64,000 bases of DNA from NCBI RefSeq assembly GCF_016925635.1, contig NZ_CP070490.1, positions 2,796,001 to 2,860,000 of the forward strand, given 5' to 3'. The stretch comes from Lysinibacillus fusiformis. Lineage in GTDB: Bacteria; Bacillota; Bacilli; Bacillales_A; Planococcaceae. Both the position numbers and the translations under genes were made by a program. A model generated the notes under the pieces. That model saw only the letters and a program-made list of their open reading frames with translations. It ran no database searches and had not been told where the DNA came from. This document shows positions 20,161 through 46,238 of this stretch, piece after piece. Position 1 is the first letter of the stretch; every line of letters starts with the position of its first letter.

Positions 20161-21345
20161 ATGAAAGCTTTATTCCGCATTTTAATGGTTGGTGGTGCAA
20201 TCGCGTTAATTGGCTTTATGTTTTTTAATACCCCGAAGGAAAACGAGCCATTAGAAGGGCCAAATACCAATTCTAATATTATTCCTCAAACTCAGCTAAA
20301 GCAGCAACCTGCAATAGGAGCAATGACACGTCCACAAACGGGTATATCTACATTGATAGGAAAAGGCACACAAACTGTTTTAGAAAAATATGGGGAGCCG
20401 GCAAGAAAAGAGCCATCCTCATTTGGTTATCAATGGTGGGTCTACAATGAAGATGTTTCAACTTTTTTTATGATTGGTATTAATAATAATATTGTGACAC
20501 AAATTTACATAGCAGGACAAGAAATTGATGCATTTCCTTTTAAAGTGGGGCAAAAACGTGATGAAATATATAGAATGACAATCATTGACTATGAGGTGGC
20601 TGCCACAGTAGGCGAAAATATTTTCATTTTCTCGATGAGTGAAGAAGATATGCAAACAAGGCTGCTTGTCCAATTTGATGGTCTTTACGCACAGCTTTAT
20701 ATAGATAGGGAGACAAGTGAGTTACAGGGGATACGCTATACAGACAGTGAAACACTTGTCCTTCATCAGCCATATGAAATGAGTTATCAAGGAGAGCTTG
20801 TTAGACGTACCCCACCTTCCTCATTTTTACAGCAAGAAATTGATGTGGCCAACGCTAAACAGCTAGATGATTTGTTAAATGTTACAAGAGTCCATCATGA
20901 TTTACTTCCTTTAGAAATGGATGAATCATTGGAGGAAGCGGCAAGAATGCATAGTGAAGATATGAAGGTACAAAATTTTTTAGCACATGAATCGCCGACC
21001 TATGGCGATCTAAAAAAACGATTACAAGCACAAAATATCGATTATAGTGAAGCGAATGAAAACCTGGCCACTGCCTATTTTGATGCGATTGAAGCTATGC
21101 ATGGCTGGACAAATTCTCCTGAACACAGAAAAGTACTTTTGAATGATAAATACACCCGCGTTGGTTCTGGTGCATTTGTAGATTATTATACGCAAATTTA
21201 TCTTGAGCCCACTCCACAAGAATTGGATAGTAAAGAGCAAGATAACGAAGAACGGAAAAATGAAGAACAAGATAACGAAGAACGGAAAAATGAAAAACAA
21301 GATAGTGAAGATTCTACAGAGAAATCAGATCAAACCTCACCATAA
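20161..21345 (+). CDS. ylbC: CAP-domain exported protein (YlbC-like) with acidic repeat tail
   Basis: 394 residues. N-terminal membrane anchor or signal (residues 1-21), a Pro/Gln linker, a CAP-associated domain (about 60-210; LGKGTQTVLEKYGEPARKEPS), then a CAP/SCP domain (about 230-355) with NLATAYFDAIEAMHGWTNSPEH. Many CAP proteins are secreted; the activity of this branch is unknown. The last 40 residues are highly charged and include a duplicated 10-residue unit DNEERKNE(E/K)Q encoded by a 30-bp tandem repeat. Position matches B. subtilis ylbC. Confidence 0.88.
   Translation: MKALFRILMVGGAIALIGFMFFNTPKENEPLEGPNTNSNIIPQTQLKQQPAIGAMTRPQTGISTLIGKGTQTVLEKYGEPARKEPSSFGYQWWVYNEDVSTFFMIGINNNIVTQIYIAGQEIDAFPFKVGQKRDEIYRMTIIDYEVAATVGENIFIFSMSEEDMQTRLLVQFDGLYAQLYIDRETSELQGIRYTDSETLVLHQPYEMSYQGELVRRTPPSSFLQQEIDVANAKQLDDLLNVTRVHHDLLPLEMDESLEEAARMHSEDMKVQNFLAHESPTYGDLKKRLQAQNIDYSEANENLATAYFDAIEAMHGWTNSPEHRKVLLNDKYTRVGSGAFVDYYTQIYLEPTPQELDSKEQDNEERKNEEQDNEERKNEKQDSEDSTEKSDQTSP
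21241..21300 (+). repeat. Two tandem 30-bp units in the ylbC C-terminus
   Basis: Units 21241-21270 and 21271-21300 differ at one base (GAAGAACAA to GAAAAACAA). They encode DNEERKNEEQ and DNEERKNEKQ. A third, degenerate unit starts at 21301 (GATAGTGAAGA). Likely length-variable between strains. Confidence 0.9.
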
Positions 21346-21360
21346 CAGAAGAATATTCAT

Positions 21361-21404
21361 ATGAAGACAAGCTTTCAACAATCGGGCTTGTTTTCATTTT
21401 TTTT
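21361..21404 (+). terminator. Terminator after ylbC
   Basis: ATGAAGACAAGC / GCTTGTTTTCAT stem (one G-U pair) and long T-run. It isolates the downstream murE, which must use its own promoter. Confidence 0.88.
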
Positions 21405-21444
21405 GTGCAGTTTCTCCAGCTCTTAGGCTTCTACATTTTTCGTC

Positions 21445-21472
21445 ACACCGTTACAAACGCCGTCATATGATA
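21445..21472 (+). promoter_or_regulatory. SigK-type (late mother-cell) promoter candidate of the detached murE
   Basis: ACA (21445-21447), 16-base spacer, CATATGATA (21464-21472). This matches the remembered SigK pattern AC-N16-CATANNNTA fully. The -10 also fits 6 of 8 positions of the SigE -10, but there is no SigE-like -35. It lies 24 bases before the start codon. Confidence 0.5.
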
Positions 21473-21496
21473 GAGAACTGAGAGGGGGAATGAGGT

Positions 21497-22969
21497 TTGC
21501 AATTAGCAGAGCTATTAAAAGACTGGCCATGTAGCGTGACGGGGGGATCTATACGGACAGAAATTACTGGTGTAGAGGACTATGCACAGGCAGTACAACC
21601 TGGTGATATCTTTATTGTACGAAAAGGTAAAAAAACATCGGGAAGTCGGTTTGTCAAAGAAGCATTGGCAAGAGGAGCTGCTGCTATCGTTTCAGAAGAA
21701 AGCATCTCTTTGCCAATTATCGATAAAGAAATTCCTTTTGTATGGGTTCCTAATACAGCATTATTTTTATCGTATGCAAGTGCAAAGCTTGCTGCTTTTC
21801 CAGCAGAAGCTTTAACTGTTATTGCCATTACAGGTACAAATGGAAAGACTACAGTGAGCCATTTTGTCAGTCAGCTTCTAAATGCTCTACATAAACAAGC
21901 AGCAGTTATCGGAACGGTTGGCTTTTTTATCAATGGCGAAAAACAACAAACGGCTTATGAGCAATTAACAACATTGCAAGCTAAAGAATTACACCCCATT
22001 CTAAAGCAGTGTGTGCGAAAAGGTGTTACACATGTTGTGCTAGAAGCTTCTTCAATGGGGTTGCAGCAGCATAGACTCGATCATTGTGACATTGATTGTG
22101 GTGTATTTTTAAATTTATCAGAAGATCATTTAGAAGATCATGGTGGGTTAGAAGCTTATAAACGTGCTAAGAAACGATTAGCGGATTTATCAAAAAAGCT
22201 AGTATTAAATGGAGATGATAACTTTTGCCGTTCTGTAGGCATCTATGATAAGAAAAAATCTTGCTCATTTGGTTTTGATAATCACAATGATTTACATATC
22301 CAAATCGTCAGTGAATCAGTTGGAAAAACCGTCCTTTGTCTACAGACTACAGCGAGTGAGCATATTGTGGAAATTCCTTTTGTCGGAAAATATCATGTAC
22401 AAAATGCTGTGGCTGCCTTAATGGCCGTATGGCGCTCAGGTGTCCCTATGGAAGATATAGTTGGACATCTGTGGACATTAAGGCTACCAGAGGGCAGGCT
22501 AGAGAAGATTGAAAATCCATTAGGGATTGATGTATATGTAGATTATGCCCATACAGCAGAAGCTTTACAAGCGGTATTACAAACCTTTGATCGTTCCAAA
22601 ACAATTTACCTTGTCTTCAGTTGTGGTGGAAATCGTGATAAGGCGAAACGTTTTGCTATGGGAGCAGTAGCAAGTAAATACGCTGATGTTATTTATTTAA
22701 CAACAGACAATCCACGTGATGAAGATCCAATTGTAATTAATGAAAGTATTATTGCTGGTTTTACAGAGCAACAATATTATGAAATATACTTAGATCGGAA
22801 GCTTGCTATCCATCAAGCGTTAGCAAAGGCAGAAAAGGGCGACATTGTTCTTGTTGCCGGAAAAGGGCATGAACAAACTCAGCAAATAAAAAACCAAAAA
22901 TTCCCTTTTTCCGATCAACAATGCATTAAAGACTATTTTGCAAGTCTAATTATGGACGACGCTGAATAA
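21497..22969 (+). CDS. murE: MurE-type UDP-MurNAc-tripeptide ligase with meso-DAP signature
   Basis: 490 residues, normal MurE length, all three Mur domains. N-terminal UDP-binding region (DIFIVRKGKKTSG), central ATPase with ITGTNGKTT (about 111-118), YVDYAHTAEAL, and C-terminal DNPR (404-407) followed by DEDP. DNPR contacts the amino acid in meso-diaminopimelate-adding enzymes; lysine-adding MurE of staphylococci and streptococci have DNPA-like sequences there. Start is TTG 21497 with GAGAGGGGG eight bases upstream. It stands alone between terminators, far from the dcw cluster, which lacks murE. A mother-cell promoter match suggests a cortex-specific role. Confidence 0.92.
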   Translation: MQLAELLKDWPCSVTGGSIRTEITGVEDYAQAVQPGDIFIVRKGKKTSGSRFVKEALARGAAAIVSEESISLPIIDKEIPFVWVPNTALFLSYASAKLAAFPAEALTVIAITGTNGKTTVSHFVSQLLNALHKQAAVIGTVGFFINGEKQQTAYEQLTTLQAKELHPILKQCVRKGVTHVVLEASSMGLQQHRLDHCDIDCGVFLNLSEDHLEDHGGLEAYKRAKKRLADLSKKLVLNGDDNFCRSVGIYDKKKSCSFGFDNHNDLHIQIVSESVGKTVLCLQTTASEHIVEIPFVGKYHVQNAVAALMAVWRSGVPMEDIVGHLWTLRLPEGRLEKIENPLGIDVYVDYAHTAEALQAVLQTFDRSKTIYLVFSCGGNRDKAKRFAMGAVASKYADVIYLTTDNPRDEDPIVINESIIAGFTEQQYYEIYLDRKLAIHQALAKAEKGDIVLVAGKGHEQTQQIKNQKFPFSDQQCIKDYFASLIMDDAE

Positions 22970-23450
22970 CAAAGAAAGATCCTGTAGCAATGGCAAGCTT
23001 GCGACCAGTCTCATCTTCGATATCACATTCCATGACAAGTGTTTGGCGGCCCTTATGAACAAAACGACCACGTGCAATCAATTCTTTATTCGTTGTGGTA
23101 GCGATATACGATATATTCATATTCGTAGTAACTACATTATATCCCTCAGGCACAGAGCGTGAAGCAAGCCCTCCCATAGCGGCATCAGCAATCGTTGCAA
23201 TAATACCCCCATGTGGCACCTTTATCGTATTGTGAATAACAGGTGTAATAGGGATACGTACCTCGCTGACCTCAGGCTCAAACTTTCCTACCATATGTAA
23301 AGTAGCATTAATATAACGACGGTGAATGCCTTGCTGTTTCTCCCGTAGTCCATTTAAAAGATGTAATAAAACATCTTCATCTTCCTCGGTACTGTCTTGT
23401 AAAATCTCGGCAACTAACTGTTCAATCTGACCTTTAGATGTTGTCATCAT
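22950..23450 (-). CDS. PaaI/hotdog-fold acyl-CoA thioesterase
   Basis: 166 residues. The hotdog active-site block PHGGIIATIADAAMGGLA and the following YNVVTTNMNISYIA strand fit the PaaI-type thioesterase family (hydrolysis of acyl-CoA esters). I chose ATG 23450 (AAAGAGG upstream). The N-terminal 45 residues are an extra helical segment. Its 3' end overlaps the murE 3' end by 20 bases in convergent orientation, so no terminator separates the two genes. Confidence 0.87.
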   Translation of the reverse strand: MMTTSKGQIEQLVAEILQDSTEEDEDVLLHLLNGLREKQQGIHRRYINATLHMVGKFEPEVSEVRIPITPVIHNTIKVPHGGIIATIADAAMGGLASRSVPEGYNVVTTNMNISYIATTTNKELIARGRFVHKGRQTLVMECDIEDETGRKLAIATGSFFVIQRRP

Positions 23451-23537
23451 TTGGAAAACCTCTTTCATTAAAATTATCAATAATGTAAAATTACCATAAA
23501 ATCTGTTATGATGGGAAAGAGATTGGGGGAATTAATA

Positions 23538-23984
23538 ATGATGATGACCTCTGACTGGGTAATCATTTTGGATGAGGCGGAAGCGCTTTGTGAGATGATT
23601 CTTTCCTCAGAACCTGCGATGGCGCTACAACAAGCGTATGAAGCAGTATATAGTGATGCACAAATTGTTGAAGCTATATATGCATTTAATCGCATGAAAG
23701 AGCAGTACGAAGATGTACAACGTTTCGGAAAATATCATCCGGACTACCATACAATTATGAAGTCGATTCGCCAACAGAAAAGGGCCCTCGACTTAAATGA
23801 AAAAGTTTCAGCCTTGAAAACTGCTGAAAACGATTTTCAGGATTTACTTGATGAGATTAGCCTATTAATAGGAAAAACAGTCTCTGAAGCGGTAAAAGTT
23901 CCTTTAAGTAATCCATTCTTTGCATCTGGTTCATCTTGCGGAGGTGGATGCGGCTCGGGCGGTTCATGCTCTTGCTCAGCATAA
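23538..23984 (+). CDS. ylbF: YlbF / RicF, Y-complex subunit
   Basis: 148 residues from ATG 23538 (GATTGGGGGAA upstream). Helical YlbF/YmcA-type fold: YSDAQIVEAIYAFNRMKEQYEDVQRFGKYHPDY is the family core. The C-terminal tail has five Cys within 16 residues (CGGGCGSGGSCSCS). In B. subtilis RicF with RicA and RicT forms the Y-complex, which binds [4Fe-4S] clusters and promotes mRNA processing by RNase Y and competence/sporulation. Position matches ylbF. Confidence 0.93.
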   Translation: MMMTSDWVIILDEAEALCEMILSSEPAMALQQAYEAVYSDAQIVEAIYAFNRMKEQYEDVQRFGKYHPDYHTIMKSIRQQKRALDLNEKVSALKTAENDFQDLLDEISLLIGKTVSEAVKVPLSNPFFASGSSCGGGCGSGGSCSCSA

Positions 23985-46113: not shown

Positions 46114-46238
46114 AATAACTTTACCTTTAAAAAATGGGAAAGAACCACTATTATTATGAAGGGTAGTAATAAATAAATGAAAGTTAATGCTTTTTTCTTA
46201 AAGAAGAAAGTGAAACAAGATTTAAAGGAGATTTTTCA

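Follow-up and report, generated by a model that had tools for sequence, protein, structure and literature searches.

The murE2 gene and its paralogue

The gene murE2 is located at positions 21497..22969 on the forward strand of the window, the whole stretch of 64,000 nucleotides of Lysinibacillus fusiformis DNA that was analysed. It encodes a predicted UDP-MurNAc-L-Ala-D-Glu--meso-diaminopimelate ligase of 490 aa. The sequence-only reading had described a murE gene that stands alone and begins with TTG, and this is what is found: a single complete reading frame with an in-frame stop, followed by a gene on the opposite strand. A Shine-Dalgarno-like AGGGGG can be read directly 8 nt 5′ of the TTG codon (21483..21488, forward strand). 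Upstream of murE2 lies a CAP-domain gene on the same strand (20161..21345), identified by its domain and a locus scan, which we take to be ylbC-like; downstream lies a convergent thioesterase gene. murE2 looks monocistronic. The CAP-domain gene and, beyond the thioesterase gene, a presumably ylbF-like gene (23508..23984, forward strand, from the same scan) form the left and right edges of a conserved murE2 locus. Read by eye, the CAP-domain protein ends in an EQDNEERKNE-like tail encoded by short repeats at 21235-21311.

All three Mur ligase domains of Pfam score above their cut-offs in the product of murE2, namely the N-terminal (PF01225), middle (PF08245) and C-terminal (PF02875) domains. 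The protein reaches 433.1 bits against the murE model TIGR01085 (cut-off 257.3) and 441.8 bits against NF001126 (cut-off 373). By these domain and model scores it is a MurE. Its nucleotide-binding loop TGTNGKTT (codons 112-119, 21830..21853, forward strand) is the same in all 22 rows of alignment A1. The DNPR motif was expected at residues 404-407 and is found exactly there as D404-N405-P406-R407 (22706..22717, forward strand); D404, N405 and R407 are likewise unvarying in the 22 rows. The motif GKGHE (codons 455-459, 22859..22873, forward strand), placed by the alignment, contains the substrate-pocket glutamate, a role given in the accessible part of PMC3829189. Compared with its counterparts in five congeners, murE2 has a dN/dS of 0.020-0.050, which indicates strong purifying selection, although four of the five comparisons are close to saturation at synonymous sites. 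Among solved structures the protein shows no preference between lysine-adding and DAP-adding enzymes, the scores being about equal: 230 bits to Staphylococcus aureus MurE (4c12), 244 bits to Mycobacterium tuberculosis MurE (2wtz) and 220 bits to Escherichia coli MurE. Its fold is, from such full-length solved homologues, already settled.

A second MurE, not of the DNPR type, had been predicted elsewhere in the genome. A search of the complete genome (5.01 Mb, one contig) with the Mur_ligase_M domain returned ten places with a Mur ligase middle domain. Two of them, rather than murE2 alone, pass the murE model TIGR01085. The second one, at genome position 2675878-2677356, encodes a protein of 493 aa that is 34% identical to the product of murE2 and carries DDPR. 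Its closest match in the PDB is the S. aureus L-lysine ligase 4c12 (492 bits, E 1.4e-146), and E. coli DAP-adding MurE 1e8c follows with 281 bits. With a lysine ligase as its nearest characterised relative and no DNPR, the paralogue is predicted to be a MurE of the L-Lys type. Both proteins pass the cut-off of NF001126, and annotators should be warned that this one "2,6-diaminopimelate ligase" model accepts both paralogues.

MurE clades, promoter and distribution in the family

The MurE tree contains 83 sequences. The orthologues of murE2 form one clade (window-type, 27 rows, support 99/97) and those of the paralogue another (Lys-type, 23 rows, support 100/100); the order of the MurE clades is left open by the tree. 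D-N-x-R is found in all 27 window-type rows, which span 13 genera, as 21 DNPR, three DNAR, two DNSR and one DNCR, and DDPR in all 23 Lys-type rows. Scanning the contigs of named genomes with the orthologue alignment gave at least 80 loci, of which 15 entered the tree and the other 65, at 31-37% identity, were left out; the locus of Sporosarcina highlanderae (L110) is the only window-type one among those 15.

Upstream of murE2, a -35-like GTCACA (21442..21447, forward strand), conserved in orthologues, and a -10-like CATATGATA (21464..21472, forward strand; pattern CATANNNTA) form the site GTCACA-N16-CATATGATA, which spans 21442-21472. We assume from the consensus that the CATANNNTA box is of the sigma-K/E type and the whole site sigma-K-like. 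The region compared with 200 dinucleotide shuffles began 200 bp upstream of the aligned start and ended 30 bp downstream of it. The CATANNNTA box recurs in 26 of the 27 window-type upstream regions (1.95 expected) versus one of the 23 Lys-type regions (2.55 expected). The strict pattern GT[GC][AT]CA-N16-CATANNNTA is present in 13 of the 27 (0.00 expected) and in none of the 23, the 27 regions not being independent, with several per genus. In several other genera a GTGTC- or GTGGC-like -35 with 15-base spacing is seen by eye. In the 5.01 Mb genome, the exact pattern GTSACA-N16-CATANNNTA occurs three times on both strands, once at murE2; with at most one mismatch it occurs at 60 places versus 35 for the reversed control pattern. 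The upstream region of spoIVA in the same genome carries the more classical sigma-E-like TCATATT-N14-CATATAGT, where murE2 has GTCACACC-N14-CATATGAT. The murE2 site is therefore assignable to sigma-E or sigma-K alike. The same inspection revealed no clear site upstream of ylbJ. Of the promoter that the sequence-only reading had ascribed to murE2, a strongly conserved putative mother-cell site of the sigma-E/K type stands; a sigma-70 promoter does not, the upstream match being at chance level (6 sites in 21300-23100 versus 5.6 expected).

The distribution of murE2 was assessed in one draw of 200 genomes of the family, including that of the window, from 19 genera and at least 95% complete, with SpoIVA as the single proxy marker of sporulation (plus ylbJ in the syntenic stretch). 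SpoIVA is present in 154 genomes and absent from 46; the latter are members of six genera and were assigned through the genus list, 20 of the 46 being listed singly. Outside genus g2, whose four genomes were set aside, the window-type gene is present in 150 of the 150 SpoIVA-positive genomes, and it is found in none of the 46 that lack SpoIVA. For 146 of the 150 it was recognized at E 3.9e-87 or better, with the best Lys-type match in the same list at 4.5e-81; for G083, G107, G119 and G164 it was established by further alignment and murE-model searches. One of the 150, G097, shows SpoIVA at E 9.7e-36 only. Genomes without SpoIVA match the window-type alignment with 362-411 bits at best versus 630 and 647 bits for two unsplit window-type matches in the same search. 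Among the matches listed, window-type genes score at least 595 bits, and no SpoIVA-less genome exceeds 411 bits. An order-level search of at least 247 genomes recovered the same 19 genera and is therefore silent on lineages beyond the family. The 47 genomes that it contributed, from g3 and g8, are outside the above counts. It also placed all 19 genomes of g5 at E 1.7e-171 or better, confirming the weakest window-type calls. The Lys-type MurE is present in 177 of the 200 genomes at E 1e-110 and absent from two genera, g2 and g5 (23 genomes).

Of 30 genomes requested, 29 entered a PycA tree, G027 having given no match; the tree yields five independent pairs with contrasting SpoIVA states. In 200 random pairings murE2 differs in the same direction in 4.9 pairs on average, in the opposite direction never and shows no difference in 0.1 (median p 0.0625). 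Scoring the broken SpoIVA of the g2 genomes G001 and G038 as absent makes seven of seven pairs concordant (p 0.0156). SpoIVA changed five times on the PycA tree, and murE2 along with it.

The order CAP-domain gene, murE2, thioesterase gene where present, and ylbF-like gene is kept in 17 of the 17 window-type loci scanned. Nine genomes of non-sporulators were fetched. The locus was recovered in seven of them and pyc alone in the other two; in all seven loci the CAP-domain gene abuts the next gene, 28-143 bp apart as judged from BLAST ends. No match to ylbJ was found between coaD and ylbL in the five non-sporulators in which both of these genes are in view. According to the accessible part of PMC3533761, sigma-E directs the transcription of Bacillus subtilis ylbJ in the mother cell, where the gene serves cortex formation. 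Its absence provides a built-in comparison for the loss of cortex genes. By the SpoIVA marker, together with ylbJ, murE2 is present and lost with core sporulation genes.

Genus g2 provides intermediate material. G020, alone among the four, has a full-length SpoIVA (a frame of 489 aa) and, at the syntenic place, a diverged DNPR MurE of 436 aa. This copy has a tree branch of 3.57 and misses the His of GKGHE, and because of this very long branch and the His-less motif it may be decaying. In G038, G052 and G001, SpoIVA is found only as fragments or with stops, and no intact window-type copy was found in these three genomes. Remnants of murE2 were read at the syntenic place of two loci, in G001 (63 bits) and G038 (44 bits). 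The murE-model matches of G052 are of other kinds: L221 was so judged from its position in the tree, the second from its score and extent. Judging from these remains, the decay of murE2 is under way in g2.

The dcw cluster of the window lies about 23 kb from murE2 in the order pbpB, spoVD, mraY. Only the gap 46114..46238 (forward strand), as read from the open reading frames, separates spoVD from mraY. The cluster is therefore without murE, as had been claimed, and murE2 does not occupy the position between spoVD/pbpB and mraY. Seven outgroup loci were examined. In six of them (Heyndrickxia, Halalkalibacter, Fictibacillus, Neobacillus, Peribacillus and Listeria) the murE gene fills this slot and its product carries DNPR; at the Pseudogracilibacillus murE locus no dcw neighbour was seen. 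Taken together, the empty slot and the DNPR enzymes of the outgroups could mean that murE2 is the ancestral dcw murE, relocated and still an ordinary housekeeping copy without special timing. This is exceedingly improbable, since the six outgroup dcw enzymes score nearer to the Lys-type (340-389 bits) than to the window-type (219-252 bits), and murE2 has a mother-cell-type promoter and is lost together with SpoIVA. The tree leaves the order of clades undecided, and the Lys-type genes, too, lie outside dcw in six of the six loci examined.

Predicted role of MurE2 in sporulation

The DNPR of MurE2 contains both the asparagine and the arginine of the meso-DAP-type motif. According to the accessible part of PMC3829189, it is these two residues that bind DAP, at its second carboxylate, in MurE of E. 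coli and M. tuberculosis; S. aureus MurE has DNPA, with Ala in place of Arg, and its A409R variant (DNPA to DNPR) yielded no DAP activity. DNPR is for this reason supporting evidence for DAP use rather than proof. The vegetative wall of Lysinibacillus contains lysine and aspartate, Lys-Asp, as stated in the accessible part of PMC6971209. Therefore the DDPR copy, which is also retained by non-sporulators, should be the lysine enzyme, and the sporulation-linked D-N-x-R enzyme would be left to supply DAP. The motif and the lysine-containing vegetative wall thus point to meso-DAP as the substrate of MurE2.

DDPR alone is a weak lysine signature because it retains the Arg and because the DDPR enzyme of Thermotoga maritima, as far as the available part of PMC9434261 goes, adds L- and D-lysine in vivo and accepts DAP efficiently in vitro. 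Such breadth would fit reversed or shared roles, in which murE2 would encode a backup ligase, lysine-adding or broad, and both precursors would come from the DDPR copy according to the amino acid pools; the lysine use of S. aureus MurE is said to depend on lysine pools in the part of PMC3829189 at hand. We consider this very improbable. The single MurE match of the non-sporulating genera g7, g9, g10 and g16 is of the DDPR type, and the window-type, which is under strong purifying selection, keeps the Asn and Arg in all 27 rows across 13 genera.

We propose that the product of murE2 is very probably a MurE isoenzyme dedicated to sporulation, a meso-DAP ligase for the spore cortex, and that its paralogue supplies the vegetative wall with the lysine precursor. 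In the mother cell, a promoter of the sigma-E/K type would turn on murE2; this timing is suggested by the promoter class and the phyletic pattern. MurE2 would then join meso-diaminopimelate to UDP-MurNAc-L-Ala-D-Glu. Through MurF and the common lipid II pathway, the product would become a DAP-containing precursor for the cortex. The paralogue at 2675878-2677356 would supply the L-lysine precursor for the vegetative wall. In the 1970s, Linnett and Tipper reportedly described DAP in the cortex of Bacillus sphaericus and a DAP-adding activity that appears in its sporulating mother cell, and this biochemistry suggests the cortex as the destination. MurE2 would account for that activity, which is known as an activity. 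The view of murE2 as a sporulation-specific DAP ligase is thus supported at the sequence level, with both of its predictions that could be followed up here holding.

Only a link to sporulation follows from the promoter class and the joint loss with SpoIVA. A sporulation gene that serves a different spore polymer or stage (germ cell wall, coat or a precursor peptide) and still adds DAP or a related amino acid would suit them equally. This is quite unlikely: MurE works at a precursor stage in the cytoplasm, the cortex gene ylbJ is missing nearby in the five non-sporulators with its place in view, and the cortex of B. sphaericus reportedly contains DAP.

A cortex DAP ligase encoded by murE2 would resemble the DAP-type MurE of E. 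coli, M. tuberculosis and B. subtilis in its three domains, in TGTNGKTT, DNPR and GKGHE, and in passing NF001126 and TIGR01085. Unlike them, it is the second MurE of an organism with a lysine wall, is encoded away from dcw and belongs to a clade of its own, and its distribution and promoter are linked to sporulation. The S. aureus L-lysine ligase 4c12 catalyzes the same class of reaction and is the nearest solved relative of the paralogue, but it has DNPA instead of DNPR (PMC3829189, accessible part), and MurE2 is about as close to the DAP enzymes. T. maritima MurE (4bub) scores 244 bits to MurE2 and shares the DDPR motif with the paralogue. Unlike MurE2, it is not a sporulation enzyme, and it uses L- and D-lysine in vivo (PMC9434261, part available).

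In several genera the locus contains a further gene. Outside the Lysinibacillus subgroup, 10 of the 11 loci inspected (g2, g3, g4, g5, g6, g12, g17 and Sporosarcina highlanderae) have, divergent from murE2, a gene for a protein of 223-275 aa; the exception is the decayed locus of G001. This gene lies back to back with murE2, for example at L058:7692-8519 and L110:2154-2885 and in eight further loci. AA_kinase is the only Pfam domain in the four short proteins tested. In the two tested with NCBIfam, the best model is the aspartate kinase NF006068, matched over positions 3-248 of 405 with 269 and 234 bits, below the cut-off of 474 set for full-length members. By these matches the short protein is the catalytic domain of an aspartokinase without its second, regulatory half. 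In the seven loci of the Lysinibacillus subgroup that were scanned (g1, g11, g14, g15, g18 and g19), the CAP-domain gene and murE2 are too close to leave room for the gene. A short aspartokinase elsewhere in the genome of the window was considered and rejected: the only match among its six amino-acid kinases is a 456-aa kinase that is 36% identical along 119 residues. Because aspartokinase catalyses the first step towards DAP and dipicolinate, its adjacency to murE2 supports, on metabolic grounds, the use of DAP in this programme. With the regulatory half missing, the short enzyme may feed the synthesis of DAP and dipicolinate free of lysine feedback.

On balance we lean slightly towards a wider reading, in which the family replaced the amino acid of its vegetative wall and kept a cortex-only DAP module, inherited vertically at one locus. 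The module would comprise MurE2 under its mother-cell promoter and, in several genera, the back-to-back aspartokinase. Its family-wide retention would mean that a cortex cannot be built on lysine, and the requirement for DAP would end only with the loss of sporulation.

In the open literature, outside of which most subscription papers lie, we found no gene assigned to the DAP-adding activity of B. sphaericus and no paper naming murE2 as a cortex enzyme, including as a sporulation DAP ligase of Lysinibacillus. Relative to this literature, a dedicated, vertically inherited sporulation MurE across a family, with repeated co-loss, would be new. If true, the proposal provides a gene for an activity reportedly known since the 1970s, and the old question of why the cortex is DAP-based when the cell wall is not becomes testable. 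An organism with two MurE enzymes allows the cortex enzyme to be removed alone, with growth untouched. Its replacement by the lysine enzyme would show if a cortex made with lysine can be assembled, cross-linked, lactam-modified and, during germination, hydrolysed.

Other MurE-like ligases

A third clade of MurE-like proteins, with DHPG replacing DNPR, contains L222-L226 from the non-sporulating genera g8 and g13 and from g12. Matches of about 300 bits in g8 and g13 had been considered as window-type candidates and were rejected, as L222-L225 fall into this separate clade; the other such matches were judged by score only. A fourth clade carries DDLN or DDRN at this position (L216, L218-L221, L227 and L228 from g2, g6 and g11); L229 of g19 groups with it and has another motif. 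In g2 and g5, the genera without a Lys-type MurE, the six genomes read (L210-L215) contain a different MurE-like ligase of 514-542 aa without the DxPx and GKGHE motifs. This ligase is a candidate for a vegetative ornithine-adding enzyme, an ornithine wall type being known for Psychrobacillus-like genera, among which g2 and g5 may belong. In the genome of the window, three neighbouring genes with the Mur ligase middle domain are located at 3734-3741 kb (L004-L006, L017). Two of them encode proteins of about 470-490 aa and one encodes a protein of about 730 aa with, by eye, an ATP-grasp-like start.
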